From: Calothrix anomala FACHB-343
GTDB lineage: Bacteria > Cyanobacteriota > Cyanobacteriia > Cyanobacteriales > Nostocaceae
Assembly: GCF_014696435.1 (NCBI RefSeq)
Contig: NZ_JACJQG010000028.1
Span: 1 to 64,000 of the forward strand
Direction: 5' to 3'
DNA length: 64,000 bases
Shown: positions 34,158-61,151 of the stretch, one piece after another
Position numbering within the stretch: position 1 is the first letter of the stretch
Layout: every line of letters begins with the position of its first letter
The notes under the pieces: generated by a model
Told to the model about the DNA's origin: nothing
The model's database searches: none
What the model saw: the letters and a program-made list of their open reading frames with translations, nothing else
Made by a program: the position numbers and the translations under genes

Positions 34158-34652
34158 TCACTTCACTCGCTTAAATTCCTCGAAAGCAATCTCCAGTTCT
34201 TCAATATGTAAGTCAGTGCTGCGGGCGTTTAAATCAGCTATTTTATAACTAGCAGGCCAAGCACCTGCTAATTCAAATCTCGCTTCTTCTTGACTGGCTT
34301 GATTATAAATAGATAAAGCCATGAGTTTTCGCTGATTTGCCCATTTACCATTTTGCACTTCTTCAAACCATTTCCAAAAAACCATAGAGTTAGCAATTGT
34401 CCCTCTCTTGAGAGTTATATTGCCACTTTTGACATTTCCCGGTATTTTAGTTCTGACTACTAATCCTTTAGCTGCTACTCCCCATTTGTTAGGGGTAACT
34501 TCACAGACTTCAATGGCATCTTGGGTTCTTTTAAAACCTTGACATTCTAAAAAGTAGCAATCGCTATTATCTTTTTGACCGTCTAATGTCAATCCTAAAT
34601 AGAACCTATGGGTAGCAAGAATTTCTGGAAGTTTTTCAGTTGCTTGAGCCAC
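34158..34652 (-). CDS. Contractile injection system tube protein (gp19-like)
   Basis: 164 residues of the phage tail tube / T4 gp19-like family (Afp1/Pvc1-type in extracellular injection systems). Features: HRFYLGLTLDGQKDNSDCYF at the start, VCEVTPNKWG, the hairpin TKIPGNVKSGNITLKRGTIA, SMVFWKWFEEVQNGKW and AGAWPASYKIADLNARSTD. The end IEELEIAFEEFKRVK is the usual tube strand. Inner-tube rings are expected inside the sheath. It lies 265 bp downstream of a second tube gene, separated by a palindromic element. Confidence 0.88.
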   Translation of the reverse strand: MAQATEKLPEILATHRFYLGLTLDGQKDNSDCYFLECQGFKRTQDAIEVCEVTPNKWGVAAKGLVVRTKIPGNVKSGNITLKRGTIANSMVFWKWFEEVQNGKWANQRKLMALSIYNQASQEEARFELAGAWPASYKIADLNARSTDLHIEELEIAFEEFKRVK

Positions 34653-34688
34653 TTTTTTTTACCAAATCAAGACAGAGGACAGGGAGTA

Positions 34689-34791
34689 ATACCAATTCAA
34701 AATTCAAAATTCAAAATTCAAAATTCAGAAATCCATATTTTGCTATGGTTCCTGTATTTGGATCTGTTTCATGATTTTAGTGAATTGGTGT
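34689..34791. repeat. ATACCAATTC-ended element with AATTCAA repeats
   Basis: Ends ATACCAATTCA (34689-34699) and TGAATTGGTGT (34781-34791) form an imperfect terminal inverted repeat. Five AAAATTC-type heptamers lie directly inside the left end. Same termini as 30395-30510 and, more diverged, 46679-46790. It sits in the 265-bp gap between the two tube genes. Confidence 0.7.
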
Positions 34792-34917
34792 AAAATGCAG
34801 TAGTTTATTTTCCTCCCTGTCAAAACTGACTTTTCACGCTGCTTTAGAAAACCTCAACAATCAGGTTTCACAAAGATTGTAAATAGCCCTAAATGAGAAA
34901 CTATGAATTAGGGAAAT

Positions 34918-35379
34918 TTATTTAACACGTTTAACACCTTCATGAACTAATTCGACTGTTTCTGTAGCCATATCACCACTAGAAGCTGTTAATGTTGGGC
35001 CTGTATATTTCACAGGATAGCAATTGACAATATTCCAGCGCGCTACTTCTGTGAGTTGTTGATTATAAGCAACTACAGAAGCTGATTTCCGATTTTGATC
35101 CCATTGACGAGGTGTACCCATATCCTCGTTACACTTTTGGTACCATTGATAAAGGTCTACATCGGCGGTGGCAATTACTTTCAGGGTAATATTCGTAAAT
35201 TTGGTAACGGTAGGAGTTGCTTGTCGCCAAATTTTACCGCTTTTACTCGAACCATGTACTTCTTGGGCTGGGGTGTTTTCTACACCTAACCCGCTAATTT
35301 CTTTAATAGATTTCTCTGTAACTCCATCTGCTTCAAAATAAAATAGACAAGCAGCTAATAATTCTGGTTGACCGGGCAT
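34918..35379 (-). CDS. Contractile injection system tube protein, second type
   Basis: 153 residues, also gp19/tail-tube-like but only distantly similar to the 164-residue tube. It has IKEISGLGVENTPAQEVHGS, TPTVTKFTNITLKVIATADV, DLYQWYQKCNED, VVAYNQQLTEVARWNIVNCY, PVKYTGPTLTASSGDMATE and the ending ELVHEGVKRVK. Both tubes end in KRVK. Systems of this type usually encode two or three tube proteins, one for the shaft and others at the baseplate junction; which is which cannot be told here. Confidence 0.85.
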   Translation of the reverse strand: MPGQPELLAACLFYFEADGVTEKSIKEISGLGVENTPAQEVHGSSKSGKIWRQATPTVTKFTNITLKVIATADVDLYQWYQKCNEDMGTPRQWDQNRKSASVVAYNQQLTEVARWNIVNCYPVKYTGPTLTASSGDMATETVELVHEGVKRVK

Positions 35380-35440
35380 GATTTAACTCCTATTTATGAT
35401 TGTGGCTGGTGGATTTTTAATCCAAAATTGAGGATATAAA

Positions 35441-35532
35441 CAGGGCTTACGCATGGTTGAGGGAGAAATAAACCGCACCAAATACAGAGGACACAGATTA
35501 ATAAAAATTTGAGAGTTTTTGCGTAAGCCCTG
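35441..35532. repeat. 92-bp element with 13-bp terminal inverted repeats
   Basis: CAGGGCTTACGCA (35441-35453) and its exact complement (35520-35532) bound a 92-bp segment containing AATAAACCGCACCAAATACA, related to the 26310 repeat. This is a common cyanobacterial MITE-like sequence. It sits between the sheath and tube genes. Confidence 0.85.
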
Positions 35533-35562
35533 CACTGATAAAATCGAGTGAATTAAGAAAGT

Positions 35563-37224
35563 TTATTCTTCATCTTCTATGCCATTCCATTGGCTGATAC
35601 GGAAGATGACAAACTCTGCTGGTCTGACTGGACAAACACCGACTTCGATGTATAAACGTCCTAAAATTCTGGTTTCTGGTGGGTTAAGTTCTTCATCGCA
35701 TTTAACATAAAATGCTTGTTCTGGTGATGCACCAAATAAGGCACCTTCACGCCAAATTCTTTCTAGGAAGTTGCTGACGGTACGTTTGACTCTAGCCCAC
35801 AAATCTTCATCGTTGGGTTCAAAAACTACCCATTGAGTACCTAGTTCGATGGATTTTTCAATATAACTAATTAAGCGGCGGACGCTGATGTAGCGCCACT
35901 CGGTTTTATCTGGTTCTACTAGTGTTCTTGCGCCCCAGATGCGGATACCACGATTGGGGAAGTTGCGTATACAGTTAATTCCCAAGGGGTTTAACAGTTC
36001 CTGTTCGCGGAAGTTGGTTTCATAACCTAGACCGATGACGCCTCTAGGTACTTCGTTGGCTGGTGCTTTGTATACGCCTCTGGTTTCGTCGGTACGCGAC
36101 CACACACCCATGACATGTCCGCAAGGAGGGACGAGTATGGGATTACCGCGATCGCGTGGATTAGGTACTTTAATCCAAGGATAGTACAGCGCCGCAAACA
36201 TGGAACGGCGGTTAAATCTGTTTAACCACTCCACTACCTGTTGGGGTTTGGTTTGTTCTGGTGGTGGGTCGATTAATACCATGCGGTTGGGTGGGTTGGG
36301 AATGTCGCCACTAGCAGAACCCTCACACATACTAATCATTAGTTCCATGATGCCGTGGACTTGATCCAAGTTCATCACGCCTGATTGATAAGCCCGCATT
36401 AAGTCGGGACAAGCTAGCATGGTGATTTCATCGATTTCAAAAATCCCTCTTACCCCTGTGCGATCGTCGCGGACTCCTTCAAAGTCTCGCGAAAATCTAT
36501 CAACTGTTTGGGCGACAATGGGGGGCGCTAGTTCATACTGGCCATTAGTCGGACGCCGAGATAAAGGTTGTCCAGATTGAGAAATATCTTCGACGTTGAC
36601 ATACATGGAACCTCTCAAAGCCGCGATCGCATAAGTTGCTACTTGGCCGGGAACTTCGCGATTCATGGTTAAGTTCTCATATTGTTCGAGAACTTCATCA
36701 CCCCGACGGATTTGGACGGTAAAGTATTCCCCTGTATTTGGTGGTTGTTCGCCTTCTGTACCTTCTGGTAAGGCACGAGGGCCGCTATCGCTAATGAAAA
36801 TGTTAATTGCACCGCCTGCTGCTTGTTCGGGGCGTAATGTCAACCGGAGGGTAGGACGGTTACCGCGACCATTTATGCGAATGTTGGCTGGTTCTGGATT
36901 TGGCGGTTTGGGTGCGCCTGGTAATTGTGTACCGATACTAGTTATCCAACAGCGCCCGCCACCATTCATAAAGTAGCCATAAACGGCGAAGGGTAAATAA
37001 GCGTTGAAATCGGTGAAGCCATCGGAGTTAGGACGGGCAAAGTAGTTGAGATATTGCGTCCAGTTGGTGACCAACATGGGCTTAAATAGTTCAGCCCCAT
37101 CACGAATATCTTCGGTAAAGCCAACAAATCCACCAACTGCGGTGCTGACACCCTCTATTGGTCTACTACCTCTGTCTATTTCTTCAACATAGACACCAGG
37201 TGCAAAGTAATCTAGTCTAGCCAT
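35563..37224 (-). CDS. Contractile sheath protein
   Basis: 553 residues of the phage tail sheath family. The N-terminus DYFAPGVYVEEIDRGSRPIE with VSTAVGGFVGFTEDIRDG is diagnostic. An inserted outer domain is at about 105-250; the C-terminal core has NPLGINCIRNFPNRGIRIWG, YISVRRLISYIEKSIELGTQ, WVVFEPNDEDLW and the final strands RLYIEVGVCPVRPAEFVIFR. Subunits polymerise around the inner tube and contract to drive it. Length and domain layout match the cyanobacterial extracellular/thylakoid-anchored type better than T6SS TssC. Confidence 0.93.
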   Translation of the reverse strand: MARLDYFAPGVYVEEIDRGSRPIEGVSTAVGGFVGFTEDIRDGAELFKPMLVTNWTQYLNYFARPNSDGFTDFNAYLPFAVYGYFMNGGGRCWITSIGTQLPGAPKPPNPEPANIRINGRGNRPTLRLTLRPEQAAGGAINIFISDSGPRALPEGTEGEQPPNTGEYFTVQIRRGDEVLEQYENLTMNREVPGQVATYAIAALRGSMYVNVEDISQSGQPLSRRPTNGQYELAPPIVAQTVDRFSRDFEGVRDDRTGVRGIFEIDEITMLACPDLMRAYQSGVMNLDQVHGIMELMISMCEGSASGDIPNPPNRMVLIDPPPEQTKPQQVVEWLNRFNRRSMFAALYYPWIKVPNPRDRGNPILVPPCGHVMGVWSRTDETRGVYKAPANEVPRGVIGLGYETNFREQELLNPLGINCIRNFPNRGIRIWGARTLVEPDKTEWRYISVRRLISYIEKSIELGTQWVVFEPNDEDLWARVKRTVSNFLERIWREGALFGASPEQAFYVKCDEELNPPETRILGRLYIEVGVCPVRPAEFVIFRISQWNGIEDEE

Positions 37225-37256
37225 AAAAGTCTCTCCAATTTAGTTAAAAAGTAATG

Positions 37257-37292
37257 GTAGAGGGCAGAGGGCAGAGGGCAGAGGGCAGAAGG
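37257..37292. repeat. GGCAGAG heptamer array
   Basis: About five GGCAGAG copies in the 146-bp gap between the cap and sheath genes; an inverted CTCCTGC version is at 37351-37366 near the cap gene stop. Confidence 0.85.
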
Positions 37293-37370
37293 AAAAATCC
37301 CTTATTTGATTATTTTGGGTTAGCTTTGTGAAATATAAGAAACATAAAAGCCTCCTGCCTCCTGCCTTCG

Positions 37371-38210
37371 TTATTCAGGAGTTAGTAAGATTTCTTTGAA
37401 GCTATAATTTTGGCTATCCACCAAGACATTGACATTCTGGGGTAAGTAGCCGGGACAGTTGACTGTCAAGACATAATTACCCAGACGCATATCTTCAAAA
37501 AAGAACAGCCCTTCTTTATTGCTTATCGCTGATTTTTTAGTTCTTTGTATAGTTACTTCTGCTGTAGTTAGGGGTAAATTAGTAACTGCACTTTTCACCA
37601 TACCTGCGATCGCTACTCGCCTGGTAACTACTGTGCCGTTACCGTTCTCACTCAATTGGTTTTGCAAATTGAAAATCCGTTCGTAAACTAGCGGTACAAG
37701 GGTGGTTTGCGGTTCCACTGGAATCATGGCTGTGATATACAAGGCAGAACGCAATGGTACATTCAGCGCACTCCATAATGAACCAATCTCAATAGGTGGA
37801 TCTAAAGCCACTGTCAGAGCTAAATTCCCGTAACCCCGCAGTTCTGGAACTAAATAGTCTTCTTGCAAAGACCGATGACGCAGCAGTACTGTTAAGGCTT
37901 CGCTGAGTAAATGATGTTCGCCTAAGGCGGTTCGATCCCAGGCTGTTAATAGCATAGAGACATCAAACCAATTAGGCGACCAACCTACAGATGTGGGTTG
38001 TAAACTCCGTGAAGCTTTACGTTCCACTTGTCTACCAGATTGTTGAAATTGCTTACTCTCACGAATGTCGTAAATATACAAATTGAGAGTTGGCCCTGCA
38101 CCCTCTTCCCGTCGATTACTAGGATGACTAAAGTCAATTTGCTCTGTACTGGTGAGTGAGGTTCCTCCAGCTAGAATTTCTGCTAAAGTTTGAAGAACGA
38201 AGATAAGCAT
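37371..38210 (-). CDS. Pvc16/DUF4255-type sheath-cap protein with C-terminal carboxypeptidase-regulatory-like domain
   Basis: 279 residues. Residues 1-190 match the DUF4255/Pvc16 N-terminal family, whose members cap the distal end of injection-system tubes: VLQTLAEILAGG, PTLNLYIYDIRESKQFQQSG, WFDVSMLLTAWDRTALGEHH, LLSEALTVLLRH. Residues about 200-279 form a carboxypeptidase-regulatory-like beta-sandwich (VAIAGMVKSAVTNLPLTTAE, NKEGLFFFEDMRLGNYVLTV). It is the first gene of the minus-strand operon, so its promoter should be in the 400 bp upstream, which is full of palindromes. Confidence 0.85.
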   Translation of the reverse strand: MLIFVLQTLAEILAGGTSLTSTEQIDFSHPSNRREEGAGPTLNLYIYDIRESKQFQQSGRQVERKASRSLQPTSVGWSPNWFDVSMLLTAWDRTALGEHHLLSEALTVLLRHRSLQEDYLVPELRGYGNLALTVALDPPIEIGSLWSALNVPLRSALYITAMIPVEPQTTLVPLVYERIFNLQNQLSENGNGTVVTRRVAIAGMVKSAVTNLPLTTAEVTIQRTKKSAISNKEGLFFFEDMRLGNYVLTVNCPGYLPQNVNVLVDSQNYSFKEILLTPE

Positions 38211-49560: not shown

Positions 49561-49670
49561 CAAAGTCGAATTCTGTTCCCGTTGTGACAGTTCTGGGAAT
49601 TATGAAGATAGGCATAAGAACTGTAAGTATAGTTTACCTACAGTCATTTTTATGGTACAAAAGTACTAAG
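49561..49670 (+). promoter_or_regulatory. Duplicated 110-bp upstream element, copy 1 (in 356-bp gap)
   Basis: Aligns without gaps to 54961-55070 upstream of the second repeat-protein gene, sharing TTCTGGGAATTATGAAGATA and ACAGTC. The left arm of the hairpin seen in copy 2 is degenerate here. It is separated from the LRV1 start by a further 130 bp holding a hairpin and a heptamer array. The element probably contains the promoter or operator. Confidence 0.6.
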
Positions 49671-49718
49671 TTGTCCTAATTCCGAAGGTTGAAGATCCCT
49701 GCGTCTATACGTAGTAGG

Positions 49719-49796
49719 TTTTCAGTTGGGGTTTAAATCCCCGACTGAAAATGTCTTTAATTTTGAATTTTGAATTTTGAATTTTGAATTTTTAAT
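49719..49796. repeat. Hairpin plus AATTTTG heptamers before LRV1
   Basis: TTTTCAGTTGGGG (49719-49731) pairs with CCCCGACTGAAAA (49739-49751), then five AATTTTG heptamers (49755-49796). Inserted between the shared upstream element and the first giant gene; absent at the second. Confidence 0.8.
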
Positions 49797-49803
49797 AGGT
49801 TTT

Positions 49804-52800
49804 ATGGTGATGCAACCTCTTCAGCCAGTTAGCGCCGCCGATTTACAAGCATTTTTAGATACACCAGAAGATTTATTACAGCAGCCTGTGGAATTGCAAT
49901 TAGCTGTTGCAAACTATATTGAAACACCGCGATCGCTCTTAGAAGTCTTAGTCAATAGCACTGATAAGCAAGTATCACAAGCCGCTAGTTTACACGTAAA
50001 TTATGCCGGAGAAATCACAGAAAATTGGCAAAAAGCGGTAGATACCATCCTGCAACAACAAGAACTAGGGCAAAATGACCGATTAGCTGTAGAATTGCTC
50101 AAATTGGGAACTGTACCGCCATGCTTTTTTAGCGAATGGGTTCCCGCAGAAAAGCTCATTCCAGCGTTGCGTAATCCCCATATACCCTTAAAATATCGCT
50201 TACAATTACTTGAACGCTTGGCGCAGGAACCGACTTTAAAACCACGCTTACAAGTTGCAGAATCACCAGAAACACCCTTAGCAGTATTAGAACAACTAGC
50301 AGGGGATTTAGAATTACCTATTAGGTTAGCAGTAAAGTTTAACCCCAATTGTCCACCATCATTAATTGAACTAGTGGAAGGACAATATACCGTTGCATCT
50401 GACTGGAATACCGATGCAGAACAATTAGCAATGTTAGCACAAAGCCGTTGGGCTTGGATTCGCTTGGCGGTGGCGCAAAATCCTTGTGCGACAGCAGAAA
50501 CTTTAATGCAGTTGGCTGGAGATACTGTATATAAAATTCAGTTAGCAGTGGCGAAGAATCCAGAAACACCCGCAGATGTGTTAGCTGTATTAGCGCAACA
50601 TCAAGATAAAACAATCCAAGCAACTGTAACAGAACATCGAAATGCGACGGAAGAGATATTACATCAATTATTTCCCAATCAGCAGCATCTTTTGCAAAGA
50701 CGGGAAAATTTACCAACTAGTATTTTAGAAAAATTTTTTAATGAAGCAGCAACAGATAAACCTATTTGGAAAAATTCTGAACTGCGGTATTTGTATTTAA
50801 ATCAACCAAATACACCTACTTGGATTTTAGCTGAATTAGCGAATGTTGATTTAGAAGTATTGAGAGCAGAGATACTTACTAGAAGTAATTCTTCACCGAT
50901 TATCAAAACTTTAGAAACATGGATTCAAGATCAGACAATATTTTTAGCTAATGTTGCCAAACATCCCCAAGTTTCAGGGGAAATATTACAGCATTTGGCA
51001 CAATATCCTAATCCATATATACATCTGGCTGTTGCGCAAAATTCCCAAACACCTGAAGCCTTGCGAGATATGCTATTACAGCAATTAGCAGTAGGCTCAA
51101 ATTTAAATATTCGGCTGCAATTGGCAAGTAATCCCCAAACTCCGGTGGCAATTTTAGAACAGCTAGCGGGTGCATCATCTTCCCTCAATATAATGATAGA
51201 GATGTTGCAGCAAATTGCCCCAGATGCTACACCATCATTACTTAACCGAATCAAAGAATTTATCGATAACCGCCAGTCACCAGAATTAATTATTTTTTGG
51301 CTGCAACAGGGGGAAGAATTTCGCAACTCTATATTAAAAGAATGGGATAATTTAGTCGAGTCGTTGAATGCATCAGAGAGGCAAACACTGGCATACTTAG
51401 CTAGCCAGAAATCATCAATTAAATGGGAAGGGAGATTTACAGCAGAAAGACGCGATCGCTCAGGAAAGAAATCAGTACCTAGCGATTCTCAAGCAGCAGA
51501 AAATTATCAAATGCTAGATGGAATATTGCATTTATTAAATAGTCCGTACAACAGCGATCGCAGTAATTTAGAAGTTGTGGCAGCATTATTAGGTAATCCT
51601 TCTACACCAGCAACTTTAAGAGAGCGATTGTGGCAACAATCCCAAAAAAGTCCTGACGAATTGGGACGCTATTTAAAAGATGCTGAAATGCGGATGGCAC
51701 TAGCTCTTAATCCCACTGTACTTGAAGCAGAGCGGAATGAATATTTACAACAATTAATGGCAACAAGCAATAATTTCCGCGAGCAATTAGCTAGACATCT
51801 TGCTACACCTGAATACCTTCTCAGACGCATCGCTGATGAACGCAAAGAGTATTTATGGCGTACTTTAGCAGAAAATCCCAATACTCCTGCTGATTTATTA
51901 CTGCGTTTTCTCAATGAAGAAGTTGAGAAAACAGTTTATAGTAATACCACTATGTTTGACTTAGTGATTGCTCATCCTAACTTACCTGTTTTACAACGTT
52001 ATCGATTATTACTAGAGAAAGCAGAAGCGCAAGAAATTACCAAAGCTCATCAATTAATGGCGCGTCGTACTGGTAGTCCTTATGCGTTAGCGCAGATTTT
52101 AGCAAAAGGCGATCGCAATTCTAAACTTACCGCCGCACGTAGCAATCAAACCCCTATCCCAGTATTACAACAACTAGCAAAAGATGCAGATGAAGCCATC
52201 CGGCAAGCTGTTTCTAAAAATGCCAATTTACCTTTAAATAACTTATTAGAATTTACACAAGATCCAAGCGTTCATGTACGTTTAAATCTTGCCTATAAAC
52301 CATTACATAGTAAAATACCTACCCCTATTCAATTATTAGAAATATTGGCACAGGATGAATCACCAATAATCAGAGCCAAAGTTGCAGAACATCCCGATAC
52401 ATCTGTGGAAATATTGGTGCAGTTAGCCAACGATACCAGTCGTGAAGTCAAAACAAAACTAATTGCTAACCCTAACACTCCCGTAACAATTCTGACTCGT
52501 TTGGGATTAGAAGAAAATCTCGTAAGTCAACGCAATCCCAATACACCAGGAATTGTACTTGCTCAAGCAGTTAAAAGCATGAGTGGGAAAAATCTCGCTG
52601 ATTTTATTAAACATCCTGTCAAAGGTTCGCAAATGCCGGCGGAAACTTTGGCACAGTTAGCAACTCACACCGATAGTTCAGTGCGTTATCGCGTCGCGTC
52701 GCACCCCAACACCCCAGCCACAGTTTTAAGACAGTTAGCGAAAGATTCCTATGTCGCTACAGTTCGCGCTGTCGCCAGTAATCCCAACACATCCCCGGAA

Positions 52801-53868
52801 ACATTGGAAGTACTCGCCAGCCATCCAGATTTTACAACGCGATTGGACGTTGCACGCAATCCTAATACACCGCCTCGCGCACTTTCCCAAATTGTTCAAA
52901 GTACCCAAAATTCAGGAAATACCCCAAATCAAACCGTGGATATGCTCAAGAGTGCATTTCCCGGTAATCATAATGATGTGCTGCGTTGCATAGCTGGGAA
53001 TCCGCGCACACCCATTGAAGCATTAGAAATTTTGGCAAGAAGAGAGTTTTTAGGTGCAACACCAGATCCGCAAGCATTCTTTCCACCTACAACGAATGAT
53101 GAGATCGTGCGATCGCTTGCATATAATCCCAGCTTAACACCACAACTGCTCGCCATTCTCACTCAAGACCCTAGCGTAGAGGTGCGAGTTTGTTTAGTTC
53201 GCCATCCCAACTTAACAGAAGCTTTATGGTTGCGCCTAGCTGAAGATACAGCAATATCGGTGCGGGAAGCAGTTGGAGCTGCAAACAACGCACCTGTAAA
53301 CGTTTTGGAATTATTGGCGCGGGATGAGCAAAGCGAGGTAAAAATTCAAGTAGCGACTAACTCTAATACACCAATTCCTGTTTTAGAAATTTTAGCCAGC
53401 GACGAAAACCCCAGTGTCAGAACTGCTGCGGCTAGTAATCCTCATCTTTCTGAAACAATCTTGGCACAATTAGCAACTGATGAAAAAGTCGAAGTTCGCC
53501 GTGCAGTTGCTCAAAATCCCAACACTCCGGCGGCTATTAAACAAAGCCTGCGCGATTTAGTTTTTCAACCCACCACCCAGCAAACTAGTTCCACCTTACG
53601 CGGACTCAGCCGCATTTACAACCCCAGCAGCGATGATATAACAAGCATACTGGCAGAATATGCAACTTCCGACAACGCCTTTGTTCGCTTAGTAACTCTA
53701 CTCCATCCGCAAACTCCGGCGGAAATATTGACACAAGCAGCACAATCTGCATCTTGGCTAGAACGCTATGCAGTTGCAGATAACCCCGCAACCCCAGAGG
53801 AACTACGCCAGCAACTAACCCACGATAGTAATCGCATTGTCAAAGCAGTTGCGATCGCAAATCTTTAA
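49804..53868 (+). CDS. Giant LRV/HEAT-like repeat protein 1
   Basis: About 1354 residues from ATG 49804 (MVMQPLQPVS), preferred because it follows TAATAGG and matches the paralogue start; an upstream in-frame ATG at 49777 lies in the heptamer array. Nearly the whole protein is built of ~23-residue helical repeats, consensus (V)RxAVAxNPNTPxxxLxxLAxD, as in the leucine-rich-repeat-variant (LRV) family. Residues about 480-570 are less regular. No signal, membrane span or enzyme motif. The C-terminal 100 residues (RIYNPSSDDITSILAEYAT) are strongly conserved with the paralogue at 55089. A scaffold or binding solenoid is inferred. Confidence 0.8.
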   Translation: MVMQPLQPVSAADLQAFLDTPEDLLQQPVELQLAVANYIETPRSLLEVLVNSTDKQVSQAASLHVNYAGEITENWQKAVDTILQQQELGQNDRLAVELLKLGTVPPCFFSEWVPAEKLIPALRNPHIPLKYRLQLLERLAQEPTLKPRLQVAESPETPLAVLEQLAGDLELPIRLAVKFNPNCPPSLIELVEGQYTVASDWNTDAEQLAMLAQSRWAWIRLAVAQNPCATAETLMQLAGDTVYKIQLAVAKNPETPADVLAVLAQHQDKTIQATVTEHRNATEEILHQLFPNQQHLLQRRENLPTSILEKFFNEAATDKPIWKNSELRYLYLNQPNTPTWILAELANVDLEVLRAEILTRSNSSPIIKTLETWIQDQTIFLANVAKHPQVSGEILQHLAQYPNPYIHLAVAQNSQTPEALRDMLLQQLAVGSNLNIRLQLASNPQTPVAILEQLAGASSSLNIMIEMLQQIAPDATPSLLNRIKEFIDNRQSPELIIFWLQQGEEFRNSILKEWDNLVESLNASERQTLAYLASQKSSIKWEGRFTAERRDRSGKKSVPSDSQAAENYQMLDGILHLLNSPYNSDRSNLEVVAALLGNPSTPATLRERLWQQSQKSPDELGRYLKDAEMRMALALNPTVLEAERNEYLQQLMATSNNFREQLARHLATPEYLLRRIADERKEYLWRTLAENPNTPADLLLRFLNEEVEKTVYSNTTMFDLVIAHPNLPVLQRYRLLLEKAEAQEITKAHQLMARRTGSPYALAQILAKGDRNSKLTAARSNQTPIPVLQQLAKDADEAIRQAVSKNANLPLNNLLEFTQDPSVHVRLNLAYKPLHSKIPTPIQLLEILAQDESPIIRAKVAEHPDTSVEILVQLANDTSREVKTKLIANPNTPVTILTRLGLEENLVSQRNPNTPGIVLAQAVKSMSGKNLADFIKHPVKGSQMPAETLAQLATHTDSSVRYRVASHPNTPATVLRQLAKDSYVATVRAVASNPNTSPETLEVLASHPDFTTRLDVARNPNTPPRALSQIVQSTQNSGNTPNQTVDMLKSAFPGNHNDVLRCIAGNPRTPIEALEILARREFLGATPDPQAFFPPTTNDEIVRSLAYNPSLTPQLLAILTQDPSVEVRVCLVRHPNLTEALWLRLAEDTAISVREAVGAANNAPVNVLELLARDEQSEVKIQVATNSNTPIPVLEILASDENPSVRTAAASNPHLSETILAQLATDEKVEVRRAVAQNPNTPAAIKQSLRDLVFQPTTQQTSSTLRGLSRIYNPSSDDITSILAEYATSDNAFVRLVTLLHPQTPAEILTQAAQSASWLERYAVADNPATPEELRQQLTHDSNRIVKAVAIANL

Positions 53869-54002
53869 ATTGCACCTAACTATGTTAAAAAACGTAGACT
53901 GAAAACCCTTACCCATGACAAAGCGCAAAGTCTGAGCGGAGGTTTACTCCGATCAGAACTTTGTAAGAATGACAAATGACAAATGACAAATGACAGCCTT
54001 AT
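53869..54002. repeat. Imperfect hairpin and AAATGAC repeats
   Basis: An imperfect inverted repeat with core CGGAG-GTTTA-CTCCG (about 53924-53966) followed by four AAATGAC-type heptamers (53969-53996), between LRV1 and its partner gene. Confidence 0.7.
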
Positions 54003-54947
54003 ATGAACTTAGAAACCGCAAAAATCTTAGGTACTCTTGAAGTATTAATTGATAAACGCCTTGAGTTTCGTCTGCACAATAATCACCATTCTTCTTTAGA
54101 ACCTTTCGTTTGGGATATCCAGGAAAAAGGCGATTTTAGTTTACTCAATCTGGGACGCGATCGCAAATGGATAACTCTCACCGATATTGATGTTGCTGTC
54201 AAAAATTGGCAAGCATTAGAACGGCGCGGTTATTTAAACCCAGATGATTATCCTGATGACTACGAAGATGTTATCGCTCCGGAATTAGCTGATGCAAGAG
54301 CAGAAATATATGAGGAATTAGCTGATGCTATTTCAGAAAACCTTCAGAATATCGAGGTTTTCAAATTTAGCCGCATTCCTATGTATTCATTTTATGTTGT
54401 GTTAGGTCAAGACCAAGAAAATAATTGGTTTTGTTTTTCTCAAACTGTTGCCAGAGAAACTAAATTACAAGGAGAAATCAAATATTCTAATTTACCTGAT
54501 TTAACTATGCAGCCATCTTTGGATGAAAATACGGCTAAATTGAAAGATAAATTTCAGCAAATCATCAATAAATTAGAACCGATTACTATTTATGGTTACT
54601 ATGGTGGCGGCTATGATTATAGATTTCCACATTATTTAGTTCAAGCAATAAGCGACTCTAGAGAACAAGCAATATTAATCGCTCTCCAACAAGCAGGAAT
54701 GCTTGATATTGGTAAATTTCACAAGTTTGACATAGAAGCTTTATCTTGGAATTGGGATGAAAATGAAATTGCTGAATTTTACCCACAATATGACAAGATA
54801 AATCAATTTATCACTCAAAAACTTTCTGATATTCAGATGTTGAGATGTAGTTTTTGGAACCGTGAATGTATATATGTTCTCGGAACAACCAAGGCTGAAG
54901 ATTTAGCAGGAATCTATATTGAAAGTAAATTTGATTTTAATCCTTAA
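54003..54947 (+). CDS. Double NuiA-like domain protein A
   Basis: 314 residues. Two halves each resemble nuclease A inhibitor (NuiA). The first (1-150) has ILGTLEVLIDKRLEF, FVWDIQEKGDFSLLNL, ITLTDIDVAVKNWQAL, EIYEELADAISENLQNIEVF and YVVLGQDQENNWFCF. The second (165-314) has KLKDKFQQIINKLEPITIYG, YYGGGYDYRFPHYL, YDKINQFITQKLSDIQMLRC, and IYVLGTTKAEDLAGIYIESK with end FDFNP. The run of a terminal helix, then ...GxT...DLAGI, parallels NuiA (IGETPAGNLAGI) as I recall it. No signal peptide. It follows LRV1 by 134 bp, same strand; paralogues follow LRV2. Function unknown. Confidence 0.65.
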   Translation: MNLETAKILGTLEVLIDKRLEFRLHNNHHSSLEPFVWDIQEKGDFSLLNLGRDRKWITLTDIDVAVKNWQALERRGYLNPDDYPDDYEDVIAPELADARAEIYEELADAISENLQNIEVFKFSRIPMYSFYVVLGQDQENNWFCFSQTVARETKLQGEIKYSNLPDLTMQPSLDENTAKLKDKFQQIINKLEPITIYGYYGGGYDYRFPHYLVQAISDSREQAILIALQQAGMLDIGKFHKFDIEALSWNWDENEIAEFYPQYDKINQFITQKLSDIQMLRCSFWNRECIYVLGTTKAEDLAGIYIESKFDFNP

Positions 54948-54960
54948 GTGATTTTTTCAT

Positions 54961-55070
54961 CGAAGTCAAATTCTGTTCCTATCTTCATAATTCTGGGAAT
55001 TATGAAGATAGGAATAAAAACTGTGACTGTAGGTAAACTACAGTCAGTTTTATAGTATATGTGTACTATT
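54961..55070 (+). promoter_or_regulatory. Duplicated 110-bp upstream element, copy 2, with 16-bp hairpin
   Basis: Contains a perfect 16-bp inverted repeat CCTATCTTCATAATTC (54978-54993) with its complement (54997-55012, TGG loop) and a second palindrome GACTGTAG/CTACAGTC (55024-55044). It could end transcription of the upstream gene or be an operator. TATAGT at about 55051 may be a -10 box for LRV2, which starts at 55089. Confidence 0.6.
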
Positions 55071-55088
55071 ATATTGGGTGTGATTATC

Positions 55089-58000
55089 ATGCAACCTCTT
55101 CAGCTAGTTAGCGCCGCCGATTTACAAGCATTTTTAGATACACCAGAACAGTTATTACAGCAGCCAACAGAATTGCAATTAGCTGTTGCAAACTACATTG
55201 AAACACCGCGATCGCTCTTAGAAGTCCTCGTTAATAGCACTGATAGCCAAGTATCAAAAACCGCCAGCTTACACGTAAATTATGTCGGAGAAATCACAGA
55301 AAATTGGCAAAAAGCGGTAGATACCATCCTGCAACAACAAGAACTAGGGCAAAATGACCGATTAGCTGTAGAATTGCTCAAATTGGGAACTGTACCGCCA
55401 TGCTTTTTTAGCGAATGGGTTCCCGCAGAAAAGCTCATTCCAGCGTTGCGTAATCCCCATATACCCTTAAAATATCGCTTACAATTACTTGAACGCTTGG
55501 CGCAGGAACCGACTTTAAAACCACGCTTACAAGTTGCAGAATCACCAGAAACACCCTTAGCAGTATTAGAGCAGTTAGCAGGGGATTTAGAATTACCTAT
55601 TAGGTTAGCGGTGAAGTTTAACCCCAATTGTCCCCCATCATTAATTGAATTAGTAGAGGGACAATATACCATTGCATCTGACTGGAATACCGATGCAGAA
55701 CAATTAGCAATGTTAGCACAAAGCCGTTGGGCTTGGATTCGCTTGGCGGTGGCGCAAAATCCTTCCGCGACAGCAGAAACTTTAATGCAGTTGGCTGGAG
55801 ATAGGGTATATAAAATTCAGTTAGCAGTGGCGAAGAATCCAGAAACACCCGCAGATGTGTTAGCTGTATTAGCGCAATATCAAAATCAAACAATCGAAGC
55901 AACTGTAGCCGAACATATCAATGCAACGGAAGAGATATTACATCAATTATTTCCCAATCAGCAGCAACTTTTAAAAAGACGAGAAAATTTACCGACTAGT
56001 ATTTTAGAAAGACTTTTTAATGAAGGGTTAAGAGATCATTATTTATTTTTACAACAACCAAATACACCTACATGGATTTTAGCTGAATTTGCGAAAGTTG
56101 ATTTAGAGGCTTTAAGAGTAGCGAAACGAGCAAAGCATACGCATCTACCATTACCAGAAGTTTTTGAGCAATGGATTAGAGATGATATTAGGTTTTTGGT
56201 TGATGTTGCCAAACATCCCCAAGTTTCGCTAGAAATTTTAGAACATTTAATTCAATATCCCCATCCATATATTAAGCTAGCAGTTGCCCAAAATTCTCTG
56301 ATTGATCCAGCGAAAAAAATTGAGTTGCTAGAGGAGTTAGTCAAAGCCGGAGAAAGGGATGTTCTCAAGCTAATCGCCGCAGATTCGCAAACACCTGTGG
56401 CGATTTTAGAACAAATAGTTGAACAGGAATCACCTCAAAATAAATTCCGCTTCAAACTCCGCCGCCTATTAACTAGAAATCCAGAAGCAGATAATAGAGA
56501 ATCTGTAGCTGATTTTTGTATGGATACAATCAGAAAAATTCTCGCTCCATATCAAATATCAATTGATGTTGAGGAATGGTTTAATTTAATTGAAAGTTAT
56601 CAATGGACAACATTACTAGAAAATTATACTTATGTTGGCGATTTACAAGGAAGATACCGCCAAGATAAAAGTTTTTACGAACAGGTAAATGAGGAATGGA
56701 AACAATTTCTGCCAACTATATCAGAGTCAGAACGACAAAAAATTATCACTAATATATTAGAAATTCCCGATACGCTGGTAGATGTGGTAAAAGACGATCG
56801 CACTGTTGCAGTAGCTTTAGTGGGTAATCCTAGTCTACCAGTACCTTTACGCGAAAAATTGCAAAAGCAACTCACTCGTCCTTTAGAAAAATTAAATTCT
56901 TACGAAAATGATTGCGATATGCGGATGGCTTTAGCTTATAATTTGCAAGTTCCCGAAGCCGAACGCAAAGAATATTTTCAGCAACTTCTCTCGACAAGTG
57001 GGGACTATATTCCAGAAACAATTGCCAGAAATCCCAATACTCCAACAGAAATTATAAACCAATTAATGACTCGTCCTGGTGTCGGTCGTCAAGCAGTTTC
57101 TCGCAATCCTCATGCACCTGCTAGTGCATTAGCAGAATTAGCTCAAGATACTAATAGCACTACACGAAATTGGGTAGCTGAAAATCCCGGTACGCCGATT
57201 AATATTTTACTGCAACTTGCTAAACAACCTGTAGAAAAGACAAATAATAATGTTCCCACTGTTCGAGGAACTGTCATCAAAAATCCTCATTTGCCTGCAA
57301 GAGAACGCCATCGGATATTATTAGCAATGGAGGAAGAACAAGAAATTACGGAAGCGCATCAATTAATGGCGCGTCGTGCTGATAGTCCTTATGCTTTAGC
57401 ACAGGTTTTAGAAAAAGGCGATCGCAATTCTAAAATTACCGCCGCACGTAGTCATAAAACTCCAATTCAAGTATTACAACAACTCGCAAAAGATGCAGAT
57501 GAAACTGTGCGTTCTGTAGTCTCAGAAAATGCTAATTTACCACTCAGCAATTTATTAGAGTTGACACAAGACTCTAGTTTAAATGTTCGCGCAGGTTTAG
57601 CCAGGAAGCGACTGCATAAACCAACTGCTGTAGAAGTACTGCAACATTTAGCTAATGATGAATCAGCACAAATTAGAGCGCAGGTTGCTGCTAATACTGA
57701 CACTCCAGAGGAATTATTGAGAAAGCTGGCTAATGACTCTAATAAAGAAGTGTGGGAAGCATTGGCGCGTAACCCAAATACACCTGTGGATATTTTAGAA
57801 TTTTTGGGGGTAGAGAAAGGCGTTGTTAATCCTTGGAATGGGAAAACACCTGCTAAAGCTTTAGCAAAAGCTGTAGAAAACACTTTAAAAATGGACTTCC
57901 GATTTCGAGATAAAGCTTTAGATGAATTACTCAAGCCGCGAAATTCCGAAATGCCAGCAGAGATATTGGTAAAATTAGCTAACTACAAAACATCATGGAT

Positions 58001-59093
58001 TCGTTCGGCTGTAGCGCATCATCCCAATACCCCGATTTTTGCCTTAGAACCCTTAATTAATGATGATTATAGCCCCGTTTTGTGGGTGATCGCGCGTCGT
58101 GCTGACACTCCCCCCCAACTCCTCGAAAGGCTGCTATTAAGGTTTACAGATACAAAAAATCAAGACTACGAACAAATTTGTCATGCAATTTGCGATCGCC
58201 GGGAACTTCCCCCCAACCTGTTAGAATTCTTGATGGAAAGTAACCTACAACAGGTTTATCTGCGAATAGCAGCGCAAGCAAATCTCCCACCAACAATTGT
58301 TGAAAGACTCATGGCGATGTCAAATGAGTCTGTGTTAACTAACCTAGCGCGCAATCATAGCCTCAGCGCTGAATTTTTAACTCGACTGGCGCAAAATTCT
58401 AATGCTAATATTTGTAGTGCGATCGCCAATCATCCCCACATTACCCCAGAAATTTGGCTACAGCTTGCTAACCATGCAGAAGTTAAAGTACGTCAGTTAG
58501 TTGCGGCTAACTCAAATACTCCTGTAAATATTCTGGAAATCTTAGCCAGCGATATAGATCAAGTTGTGCGTGCAAATGTTGCGAATCATCGCAATTTACC
58601 TGTACAGATTTTAGAACAATTAGCACAAGATGAAGAAGCATTTGTTCGTGTAGCCATTGCTAATAATCCGCATTCACCAGAAACAATCCTGACACAACTA
58701 GCAACTGATGAAAAAATCGAAATTCGTCGTGCTGTTGCACTTCATCCTCATACCCCTGCGACTATTAAACAAACCCTGCGTGATTTTCTTATCCAACCCA
58801 ACAATCAACAAAGTGTCAGCACTACCTTACGCGGAATCAGCCGCATTTACAACCCCAGCAGCGACGACATTACAACCATACTTGCAGAATATGCGAATTC
58901 CGAAAACGCCTTTGTTCGCTTAGTAACCTTACTCCATCCCCTAACTCCCCCAGAAATATTAACACAAGCAGCACAATCTCAATCTTGGCTAGAACGCTAC
59001 GCAGTTGCAGATAACCCCGCAACTCCAGAACAATTACGCCAAAAACTTGCGCAAGATAGTAATCGCATTGTTCGTGTAGCAGCTAAAGTTTAG
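55089..59093 (+). CDS. Giant LRV/HEAT-like repeat protein 2
   Basis: 1334 residues from ATG 55089 (MQPLQLVSAADLQAFLDTPE), chosen by comparison with the paralogue; an in-frame ATG at 55059 would add ten residues. Same ~23-residue helical repeats (VRxxVAxNPxTPxxILxxLA). The first 260 residues are almost identical to LRV1; the middle (about 340-600) diverges strongly and also differs in length; the last 100 residues (SRIYNPSSDDITTILAEYAN) converge again. So the two have common ends and variable centres, as in proteins whose middle recognises different partners. No catalytic motif. Confidence 0.8.
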   Translation: MQPLQLVSAADLQAFLDTPEQLLQQPTELQLAVANYIETPRSLLEVLVNSTDSQVSKTASLHVNYVGEITENWQKAVDTILQQQELGQNDRLAVELLKLGTVPPCFFSEWVPAEKLIPALRNPHIPLKYRLQLLERLAQEPTLKPRLQVAESPETPLAVLEQLAGDLELPIRLAVKFNPNCPPSLIELVEGQYTIASDWNTDAEQLAMLAQSRWAWIRLAVAQNPSATAETLMQLAGDRVYKIQLAVAKNPETPADVLAVLAQYQNQTIEATVAEHINATEEILHQLFPNQQQLLKRRENLPTSILERLFNEGLRDHYLFLQQPNTPTWILAEFAKVDLEALRVAKRAKHTHLPLPEVFEQWIRDDIRFLVDVAKHPQVSLEILEHLIQYPHPYIKLAVAQNSLIDPAKKIELLEELVKAGERDVLKLIAADSQTPVAILEQIVEQESPQNKFRFKLRRLLTRNPEADNRESVADFCMDTIRKILAPYQISIDVEEWFNLIESYQWTTLLENYTYVGDLQGRYRQDKSFYEQVNEEWKQFLPTISESERQKIITNILEIPDTLVDVVKDDRTVAVALVGNPSLPVPLREKLQKQLTRPLEKLNSYENDCDMRMALAYNLQVPEAERKEYFQQLLSTSGDYIPETIARNPNTPTEIINQLMTRPGVGRQAVSRNPHAPASALAELAQDTNSTTRNWVAENPGTPINILLQLAKQPVEKTNNNVPTVRGTVIKNPHLPARERHRILLAMEEEQEITEAHQLMARRADSPYALAQVLEKGDRNSKITAARSHKTPIQVLQQLAKDADETVRSVVSENANLPLSNLLELTQDSSLNVRAGLARKRLHKPTAVEVLQHLANDESAQIRAQVAANTDTPEELLRKLANDSNKEVWEALARNPNTPVDILEFLGVEKGVVNPWNGKTPAKALAKAVENTLKMDFRFRDKALDELLKPRNSEMPAEILVKLANYKTSWIRSAVAHHPNTPIFALEPLINDDYSPVLWVIARRADTPPQLLERLLLRFTDTKNQDYEQICHAICDRRELPPNLLEFLMESNLQQVYLRIAAQANLPPTIVERLMAMSNESVLTNLARNHSLSAEFLTRLAQNSNANICSAIANHPHITPEIWLQLANHAEVKVRQLVAANSNTPVNILEILASDIDQVVRANVANHRNLPVQILEQLAQDEEAFVRVAIANNPHSPETILTQLATDEKIEIRRAVALHPHTPATIKQTLRDFLIQPNNQQSVSTTLRGISRIYNPSSDDITTILAEYANSENAFVRLVTLLHPLTPPEILTQAAQSQSWLERYAVADNPATPEQLRQKLAQDSNRIVRVAAKV

Positions 59094-59118
59094 TTGTGAA
59101 TAATTGAGGATGTTGCAG

Positions 59119-59193
59119 ATGCCATACAGTGATTTTACACTTGCTAAAGTTCGAGAAGCTTTTCAAGCTGCTTTACTTACAGTGTCTTCCTAA
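59119..59193 (+). pseudogene. N-terminal fragment of an MPYSDF-type cyanobacterial protein
   Basis: Only 24 codons, starting MPYSDFTLAKVREAFQ, then TAA. This is the usual N-terminus of a family of cyanobacterial hypothetical proteins of about 200 residues beginning MPYSDF-T/K-L, as I recall. No continuation is seen in other frames nearby. It is probably a remnant left between LRV2 and the next partner gene. Confidence 0.5.
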
Positions 59194-59264
59194 ATCAGCA
59201 ATTTTAGGTATGTTTCACTTTGCTAACATACCTTCAATATACTTAATATCTAATCTCTGAAATT

Positions 59265-60203
59265 ATGCAACCAAAAACAGAACAAATTCTTGCAACAATT
59301 GAAGTAATTCTTGACTCTAAATCTGGCTTTCATTTACCAGGACATGAAGATGGGGGATATATTTACCCATTTGTTTGGGATGCAACCGAAAAAGGTGAAT
59401 TTAATATTCTCAATCTTAGCCTTTCTCAAAATTGGTTAAAACTTACAGATATTGAGAATACAATCAAGAGTTGGCGGACAATGGATTATGCGAGGAATTT
59501 TAATAGCTTTGACTTAAATGAAAACGAACAAACTGATTGGGCTAATAAAATAGAAAACTTATATCAAATCATAAGAGATAATTTACAAGATTTAGAATCT
59601 TTTTTTGTCAAAACTTCCTCTTACTTTCCCTCAGACGATCTAGTTGGTTTGATTGTTGGTAAAACAGCAGATGGAGATTGGGTTACTGTTTTCCAGACTC
59701 TTTATAAAGAAACTAAAATTCCACAAGAACAACTTTCTCGTTCTCCCGTAATTCATCCTATCTCTGCTCAAGCATTAAGAGAAAATACACTCAATATAGT
59801 CTCACAACTTCAAGCCATCACATCAGAACTAGGAACCATTCATTTAGCAGGAGATATTGGTGGTGGATATTACTATAATTACGATTATCAAATCGTCTAT
59901 GGTGCGGCTGAGACAAAAGAAGCAGCAATGGCACAGGCTCTACAAGCTTCGGGAATGTTAGAAATTGGCATATTTCATAAGTTTTTTTCTGAGAAAGAAT
60001 ACTTGCCAAGGTGGGCTAACAATTTAGAGGCAAAATATGCAAAATACGATAAATTAAACAAATTTTTACATCATACTTTTGCAGAAGTAATGATGTACAG
60101 ATTTAGCTTTTGGACTCAGGAGAATATCTATATTATTGGCGAAACTTCAGGAGGCGATTGGGCTGGTTTATACATAGAAAGCGAATTTGTGTATAATCCA
60201 TAG
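59265..60203 (+). CDS. Double NuiA-like domain protein B
   Basis: 312 residues, paralogue of 54003-54947. First half: ILATIEVILDSKSGFHL, YPFVWDATEKGEFNILNLSL, KLTDIENTIKSWRTMD, LYQIIRDNLQDLESF, VGLIVGKTADGDWVTVF. Second half: SQLQAITSELGTIHLAGDIG, GGYYYNYDYQIVYGAAETKE, KYDKLNKFLHHTFAEVMMYR, then SFWTQENIYIIGETSGGDWA and the end FVYNP. The last segment is the closest of the three to NuiA, which has KFQKLLEVIKSNL and IGETPAGNLAGI. Follows LRV2 by about 170 bp with a gene remnant between. Confidence 0.7.
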   Translation: MQPKTEQILATIEVILDSKSGFHLPGHEDGGYIYPFVWDATEKGEFNILNLSLSQNWLKLTDIENTIKSWRTMDYARNFNSFDLNENEQTDWANKIENLYQIIRDNLQDLESFFVKTSSYFPSDDLVGLIVGKTADGDWVTVFQTLYKETKIPQEQLSRSPVIHPISAQALRENTLNIVSQLQAITSELGTIHLAGDIGGGYYYNYDYQIVYGAAETKEAAMAQALQASGMLEIGIFHKFFSEKEYLPRWANNLEAKYAKYDKLNKFLHHTFAEVMMYRFSFWTQENIYIIGETSGGDWAGLYIESEFVYNP

Positions 60204-60233
60204 TTTTAAATATTACAATTACGTCAAATCACT

Positions 60234-61151
60234 ATGCACCCCGAAACAGAAAAATTGCTCGGTACATTAGAAATCCTCTGTTCTAATGCTTTTATTTGGG
60301 AAACTATCTACCAAGGAGAATTTAACCTATGGAATTTGATGATTTCTCAAAGATTTGTCAACCTAACCGACATAGAACTCGCTTTTGAACATTGGCAAAA
60401 TATTGAGGAATGGGGAACGCCTACAAATCAAAAAGAATATGGTGAGTATGCTCCGACTCGTTCCGAACGTAAAAACAATAACTGGAATGAAACTATTGCT
60501 GCTGAACGCCAAGAATATTATCAAAAAATTCAGCATATCCTGACTAAAAATTGTCAAAATTTGCAAGCTTATAGTTTATCTATCCCCACAACAAACCATC
60601 AAAATTTTGAATGGAGACACCCTGATTTTTCTGTATCAATACTAGTAGCTGAAACTAAAAATAATAACTGGTTATGTCTTGCGCCTACTGTTCCCGATCA
60701 AGTCAGCTATAATCGCCGTAAAACAAACCCAGCCACAACGAAAATTGTCCGTGAAAAATCAGCAACTTTAACTGATGAAAGTTTAATAAACGAAGTTCAA
60801 TTATTTCTCGATCATCTCACGCCAATTACCATTTACGGCTACTATCATGGCGGATATAACTATACTTATGAACATCATCTCGTAGGTGCATACGCTAAAA
60901 CTAAAATATCTGCAATTGAACTTGCATTGCAAGCCGCAACAATGGTAGTAATAGAAAAGCCAACGCTTGAATATGTTAGAGATGCTGACAATAGCCGCAA
61001 ACTCAGCCAATTTATGAACCAGTGTTTGCGCGATCGCACTCTCTACAATATCAGTTTTTGGGATATGGGTTACACCTACGAAGTCGGACAAACCCCACCC
61101 GGTGATTGGATTGGCGTTCGTTCCACCAGTGAATTTGAATATAATCCTTAG
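60234..61151 (+). CDS. Double NuiA-like domain protein C
   Basis: 305 residues, third paralogue, 30 bp after protein B and so cotranscribed with it. First half: KLLGTLEILCSNAFIWETIY, QGEFNLWNLMISQRFVNLTD, IELAFEHWQNIEEWG, YYQKIQHILTKNCQNLQAYS. Second half: LINEVQLFLDHLTPITIYGY, YHGGYNYTYEHHLVGAYAKT, SRKLSQFMNQCLRDRTLYNI, SFWDMGYTYEVGQTPPGDWI and end FEYNP. The N-terminal half is shortened: the segment before FIWE is missing. Protein A and C share ITIYGYYxGGY. Function unknown; probably the same role with another partner. Confidence 0.65.
   Translation: MHPETEKLLGTLEILCSNAFIWETIYQGEFNLWNLMISQRFVNLTDIELAFEHWQNIEEWGTPTNQKEYGEYAPTRSERKNNNWNETIAAERQEYYQKIQHILTKNCQNLQAYSLSIPTTNHQNFEWRHPDFSVSILVAETKNNNWLCLAPTVPDQVSYNRRKTNPATTKIVREKSATLTDESLINEVQLFLDHLTPITIYGYYHGGYNYTYEHHLVGAYAKTKISAIELALQAATMVVIEKPTLEYVRDADNSRKLSQFMNQCLRDRTLYNISFWDMGYTYEVGQTPPGDWIGVRSTSEFEYNP

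Follow-up and report, generated by a model that had tools for sequence, protein, structure and literature searches.

Giant LRV solenoids with exchangeable central cassettes, linked to double NuiA-like proteins in cyanobacteria: a possible recognition module

Findings

We describe a conserved module of cyanobacteria in which a gene for a giant solenoid of LRV repeats (S) is followed on the same strand by one or more genes for proteins with two NuiA-like halves (N). A central segment of S, termed V1, is replaced in one piece through homologous recombination within the constant flanks, and the partner genes are left untouched. In the reading that we favour, S would be a diversifying recognition receptor with constant NuiA-fold partners, probably acting against invaders.

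The module was studied in a 64,000-nucleotide stretch of Calothrix anomala FACHB-343 (the window), from a genome of 9.24 Mb in 144 contigs. There it comprises five plus-strand open reading frames at 49810-61151, in the order S1-A-S2-B-C that a first-pass annotation of the same DNA had claimed. The features are as follows; percentages for V2 were computed over alignment columns 1080-1420.

49563..49668, plus strand: upstream element of S1 (promoter or leader), forming a repeat pair with 54963-55068 (79%)
49810..53868, plus strand: S1, giant LRV solenoid of 1352 aa (Pfam LRV PF01816, 1e-62)
50443..52060, +/- 90 nt, plus strand: V1 cassette of S1, from the nucleotide identity profile against the NIES-22 orthologue
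52228..53440, plus strand: V2 of S1 (approximate, alignment columns 960-1440), from identity by type
54003..54947, plus strand: A, double NuiA-domain protein of the N family (PF07924, 1.3e-10)
54963..55068, plus strand: upstream element of S2, with a LexA-box-like palindrome at 55053-55068 that has 1 mismatch to the 14-mer
55089..59093, plus strand: S2, giant LRV solenoid of 1334 aa (Pfam LRV, 7.9e-57), 59% identical to S1
55947..57306, plus strand: V1 of S2 (approximate, columns 320-880), 40% to S1 V1 and 94% to NIES-22 S2 V1
57537..58668, plus strand: V2 of S2 (approximate, columns 960-1440), 33% to S1 V2 and 97% to NIES-22 S2 V2
59110..59193, plus strand: 27-codon remnant of a PD-(D/E)XK nuclease-like gene (tblastn, 90% over 21 aa to the gene of locus L078)
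59265..60203, plus strand: B, double NuiA-domain protein of the N family (PF07924, 7.3e-13)
60234..61151, plus strand: C, the best conserved of the N types, with a double NuiA domain (PF07924, 3.5e-4)

The earlier assignment of both large proteins to LRV solenoids is borne out by Pfam (PF01816, 1e-62 and 8e-57), and a profile of S retrieved 1lrv as its sole match in the PDB (E 8e-7, limit 0.01). Their length, given before as about 1340 residues, is corrected to 1352 aa for S1 (ATG at 49810) and 1334 aa for S2. The near-identical amino-termini and conserved carboxy-termini stand, the two genes being 91% identical in DNA across a 300-nt stretch at their start and 88% identical across 248 nt close to the 3' end, with an overall protein identity of 59%; the centre, described as merely differing, is instead a recombining cassette. 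A, B and C are paralogues as claimed, B being 35% and C 33% identical to A. No N gene beyond these three was found anywhere in the window's genome, in which weaker LRV relatives of S lie on two other contigs (C13 and C135). The ordinary LRV gene of locus L073 (G000:C13) adjoins a gene whose product is, by Pfam, a radical SAM protein that also has an HMPTM zinc ribbon. Contractile-injection-system genes lie on the minus strand of the window at 34158-38210, roughly 12 kb away from the module; Pfam identifies among them two tail tubes of the gp19 type, a sheath of the phage type and a protein with a Pvc16 N-terminal domain; an FHA protein is encoded at 30725-33082.

Linkage of S and N across genomes

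N lies downstream of S on the same strand for all 27 selected S genes at 25 loci, a set of 24 intact and three split genes. The distance from S to the first N is 5-959 nt, not exceeding 174 nt in 21 of the 27, and five of the six longer gaps contain a PD-(D/E)XK-like gene, whole or split. Nine decayed or cut S copies were left out (L089, L129, L143, L144, L146, L147, L151, L152 and L153); four of them (L146, L151, L152 and L153) retain N or an N fragment, N was not found at L089, L143, L144 and L147, and L129 ends at a contig edge. Loci of genomes fetched twice (L125, L126, L128, L130, L133, L148 and L149) were counted once.

Among 218 genomes of the window's family, 20 have both S and N, two S only, one N only and 195 neither (Fisher p 4.9e-25, uncorrected for kinship; the cut-off for this table, E <= 1e-50, was set after the matches had been seen, the searches having been run at 1e-20 and 1e-25). 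The co-occurrence noticed in one genome is therefore conserved outside it. Searching 84,980 named species genomes with S yielded twelve loci. Nine have a true S followed by one to three N genes, one has an S fragment without N, and two are ordinary LRV genes. Further loci were obtained with an S N-terminal profile from the 218 genomes of the window's family and 61 of another family of the order. At least two families of the genome set show the adjacency, as do named records from Calothrix, Nostoc, Tolypothrix, Aphanothece and Okeania. In a phylum-wide set of 386 genomes the N profile (E <= 1e-3) matched 20, only two of which have a true S, and most of these 20 matches are distant NuiA-family proteins in other settings. 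None of seven ordinary LRV genes, in six stretches of 16-22 kb, has N nearby. At three loci (L131, L132 and L134) the module is flanked on both sides by genes that by eye resemble DevBCA-type exporters.

Relationship of N to NuiA

A and B exceed the Pfam gathering score for NuiA, and C, with 21.3 bits, falls just under the cut-off of 22.1. A profile of 20 N proteins retrieved from the PDB NuiA alone at E up to 1 (2o3b, E 9.7e-8; 1j57/1ktu, 1.1e-7). Compared as profiles, the two halves of N match one another (hhalign probability 94.2, E 1.2e-7, 98 columns). Thus, both the proposed relation to NuiA and, because the halves match each other, the description as a double NuiA are valid at the sequence level.

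NuiA acts through its C-terminal Thr, which contacts the metal site of the nuclease. This residue is absent from A, B and C, which end instead in FNP, YNP and YNP, respectively. The [YF]NP tail is conserved in 28 of 29 N proteins, the remaining one being truncated by a contig end; in another set of N proteins the exceptions are L081, L082_N2, which does end in Thr, and L086. The C genes of four related strains are 90-93% identical to that of the window.

Cassette exchange in S

Seven S genes of the window's genus form 21 pairs, in which the N-part is 84-97% and the C-part 76-96% identical. V1 in the same pairs is either 87-97% (three pairs) or 33-46% identical (18 pairs), with nothing between, and V2 falls into two types, with 32-33% identity between the S1 and S2 types and 90-97% within them. 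The pattern is well illustrated by S1 of the window and its syntenic orthologue in Calothrix brevissima NIES-22, which are 90% identical in the N-part, 36% in the centre and 93-96% in the last 40% of the protein; their dS is 1.41 in V1, 0.07 in V2 and 0.15 in the flanking gene. Likewise, Calothrix membranacea FACHB-236 and Nostoc linckia FACHB-104 share 46% of V1, with 86% in the N-part, 97% in V2 and 96% in the C-part, and the dS is again 1.41 in V1 and 0.15 in the flanking gene. Two of the three same-cassette pairs cross the clade border of the flanking gene: window S1 with that of genome G402, where dS is 0.16 in V1 versus 0.72 in the flanking PEP-utilising-type gene, and NIES-22 S1 with that of FACHB-236 (0.02 versus 0.70).

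Trees of the individual regions of S are in strongly supported conflict with each other. AU tests on V1 reject the clade groups (W_S1+NIES22_S1, p 1.9e-42; FA236+FA104, p 1.4e-5), which were defined with the identity profile already known, and on V2 they reject the cassette groups (W_S1+G402, p 1.6e-4; NIES22_S1+FA236, p 2.1e-4). Three tests gave no rejection, one of them on V1 with five genes together and two others (p 0.18, 0.068 and 0.155); NIES22_S1+FA236 is not rejected on the tree of the S ends (p 0.155). The ends recombine too, as W_S1 and G402 have a dS of 0.49 in the N-part and 0.29 in V2, versus 0.72 in the flanking gene. At 80% identity V1 forms 18 clusters among 23 genes and the N-part nine among 24. 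The same constant-variable layout recurs in other species groups, with G545 lacking V1 entirely, and beyond the genus it is Aphanothece hegewaldii that has the best match to the window S1 cassette, at 49% over 433 residues. In regions of same-cassette pairs the NG86 dN/dS is 0.10-0.63 and the reading frames are kept; V1 is therefore retained as a working protein. Point-wise positive selection is unsupported because no whole region has a dN/dS above 1, and two values of 1.09 and 1.11 in windows of the dN/dS scan were discounted because the comparisons are nearly saturated.

The partner genes follow the clade and not V1. The A proteins of the window and NIES-22, which have different V1, are 97% identical, versus 78% for those of the window and G402, which have the same V1; FACHB-236 and FACHB-104 are 95% identical in B and 94% in C despite their different V1. 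As N is constant beside differing V1, it is unlikely to be the ligand of V1, and the constant ends of S are better candidates for the interface with N. The first-pass annotation had placed the module under diversification, and this can now be stated more specifically as cassette exchange in S and not in N.

Upstream element and PD-(D/E)XK-like neighbour

The 110-bp element reported before each solenoid gene is real, measuring 106 bp with 79% identity between its two copies (49563-49668 and 54963-55068). Both copies hold small inverted repeats, and a hairpin loop seems flipped between them. A similar element is found by blastn upstream of 10 of the 27 S genes. Its end is a palindrome resembling a LexA box, in most cases about 35 nt ahead of the start codon; that of S1 (49654-49667) exactly matches RGTACNNNDGTWCB, the Nostoc LexA box as cited in a passage of PMC3091678, and no other exact match occurs on the searched strand of the window. 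Of 29 upstream stretches, each 200 nt long, four have an exact site, 13 one mismatch, seven two mismatches and five three or more, the chance of at most one mismatch being 0.02-0.09 per gene (from single-base shuffles, with orthologues that are not independent). Sites with one mismatch or none number 18 in the 64-kb window alone. A stricter 16-mer occurs in five other places of this genome and its reversed pattern in none; none of the five precedes a recA or lexA recognised by eye. A strict 16-mer at site 1673 of G000:C89 (L156) lies 71 nt before a short gene that looks, by eye, like a toxin-antitoxin partner of the DUF4065 type. The chance sites, the non-independent orthologues and the lack of recA or lexA among the other 16-mer sites make the LexA reading weak.

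The PD-(D/E)XK-like remnant of the window fuses the start of a gene to its final codons, as an internal deletion would leave it, and an intact relative occupies the equivalent place in L078. The PADLOC profile PD_DExK matches the relatives in L078 (6e-52) and L085 (1.4e-51), and four members of the family gave no Pfam match at a useful E. An intact or split gene adjoins S in six of the 25 loci; in five of these, one with a split copy, it separates S from N, and in the sixth it precedes S. Remnants are seen between S and B in three (the window, NIES-22 and Tolypothrix FACHB-123), and in 16 the gene was not found. With this distribution it was rejected as a core third component. The PD proteins of FACHB-236 and FACHB-104 are 96% identical. 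Since members of the family occupy 12 other places in this genome, one of them (L074) next to an ordinary LRV gene, the copy beside S may be hitch-hiking; the protein may thus be an effector or a hitch-hiker.

Turnover of the module

S is present in five of the nine genomes of the window's genus. All four without it retain the flanking gene, with synteny up to window positions 49576-49623, and both S and N are absent at that empty site. Its distribution in the family is patchy (22 of 218 genomes), and many copies elsewhere are broken, one (L085) carrying a DDE transposase gene. Carriage by mobile elements was considered and rejected: viral contigs gave nothing for the S N-part or N, phages nothing for A, and plasmids nothing for A and C, the S N-part matching in plasmids only LRV proteins under 60% identity (7 records). 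A patchy and decaying module, in which the recognition part is exchanged between species and the partners stay constant, fits recognition systems under outside pressure.

Interpretation

We tentatively propose, with confidence a little short of even, that the S-N pair serves cyanobacteria as a recognition module, carried on the chromosome and reassorting horizontally. S would act inside the cell as a long LRV solenoid whose N- and C-terminal parts are constant and in which two segments, V1 and V2, vary. The constant ends are predicted to carry the interface to the NuiA-fold partners, whereas V1 and V2 would bind a fast-changing ligand, most likely a protein of the invader. N might restrain an effector or relay a signal, as NuiA blocks NucA. 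Where a neighbouring PD-(D/E)XK protein is present, it would be the likely effector nuclease; at loci without this gene the effector might be encoded apart or be one not known. The LexA-box-like operator before many S genes would, on a weak reading, raise S expression after DNA damage. The roles in conflict or immunity and in nuclease control that the first-pass annotation had put forward are ones that we infer. Their fullest form, an undescribed intracellular immune receptor system of cyanobacteria in which LRV solenoids change specificity by swapping the central cassette between strains and species, constant double-NuiA-fold brake or signal subunits control a nuclease, and DNA damage induces the whole through a LexA-like operator, strikes us as rather unlikely.

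Other readings of the same data have to be weighed. N could confer immunity against nuclease toxins of relatives, with S as a scaffold or variable identity tag, in a form of kin discrimination. This would agree with NuiA being a nuclease inhibitor family, with several strongly different N paralogues standing side by side (B and C 33-35% to A), and with the one Endonuclease_NS (NucA-type) gene in the window's genome. However, that gene sits on another contig, inspection by eye revealed no toxin gene next to the module, and the conservation of N goes by position (90-93% between strains for C) while S varies, which is the reverse of a toxin-immunity arms race; we consider such a role improbable. 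At the other extreme, S and N might be unrelated, a tandem-duplicated repeat family beside chance neighbours. LRV repeats do recombine easily, and NuiA-family genes also occur alone, three relatives adjoining genes that by eye resemble psaA/psaB (L064-L066). Yet adjacency in 27 of 27 cases from at least two families, and a genome-level Fisher p of 4.9e-25 (kinship uncorrected), already make this view hard to hold, and it is very improbable.

An ordinary scaffold is an unlikely but more serious contender, with S as an LRV adaptor in stress or assembly, N as its subunits, and V1 changing as paralogues recombine, with no selection for recognition. These genomes commonly encode LRV proteins (C13 and C135 in the window's own), dN/dS is below 1 in the regions of S, and S1 and A/B/C lack a defence-family match in PADLOC (A reaching E 0.037 only). 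Against it, V1 alleles of 33-46% identity beside ends of 76-97% need repeated and retained replacement from far donors, a patchy module (S in 22 of 218 genomes) that is often decaying is unlike a housekeeping part, and ordinary LRV genes stand without N (0 of 7 in stretches of 16-22 kb).

If the recognition module is real, an LRV-repeat receptor diversified by exchange of whole cassettes would join the known bacterial ways of varying recognition, and the orphan NuiA family would gain a second role. The natural allele swaps, with the same ends and partners and different V1, would be ready strain pairs for probing recognition by V1.

Comparison with known systems

S resembles the LRV proteins (PF01816; 1LRV of Azotobacter) in its repeat family and its match to 1lrv (E 8e-7), but is about five times as long as the 244-residue 1lrv chain and differs in its constant-variable-constant layout and its NuiA-family partners. 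The Azotobacter protein carries an N-terminal 4Fe-4S cluster; such a cluster is not expected in S because only 2 cysteine columns are conserved among 24 S proteins. N is related to NuiA, the Nostoc nuclease A inhibitor (PF07924; 2O3B, 1J57/1KTU), with A and B passing the Pfam cut-off and NuiA as the sole PDB relative. Unlike NuiA, it has two NuiA-like halves per chain, a conserved [YF]NP tail and a gene beside S; the partner of NuiA is NucA, which N is not known to bind. PADLOC 2.0.0 component profiles gave no match for S1, B and C, and one for A at E 0.037, so the module is not filed under any known defence family. The combination of LRV and NuiA parts was not found in the literature searched, no open-access paper joining the two kinds of genes; one search was swamped by human NOD2, and absence from print is unproven.

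The MoxR-vWA ternary conflict systems and DGR-diversified sensors of multicellular bacteria (PMC7159879, PMC10907252) likewise combine a diversifying putative sensor with constant partners and have filamentous cyanobacteria among their hosts, as far as the relevant passages of these papers go. Those passages name TPR, HEAT and propeller repeats and reverse transcriptases, and neither main text mentions LRV or NuiA. The diversity of S arises by block exchange, which is not the DGR pattern, and no MoxR ATPase or vWA genes were recognised by eye among the open reading frames around the module in the window and at 24 other loci. In G305 and G091, ordinary LRV genes (L076 and L077) do lie near genes that by eye resemble MoxR-like ATPases and vWA proteins, which suggests a wider link of LRV proteins to such systems.

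The HsdS subunit of type I restriction systems offers another parallel, in that its specificity segments are exchanged between constant parts by recombination. S is unlike HsdS in being a repeat solenoid rather than, as far as can be told, a DNA-binding TRD pair, and no methylase or restriction subunit was recognised beside the module.
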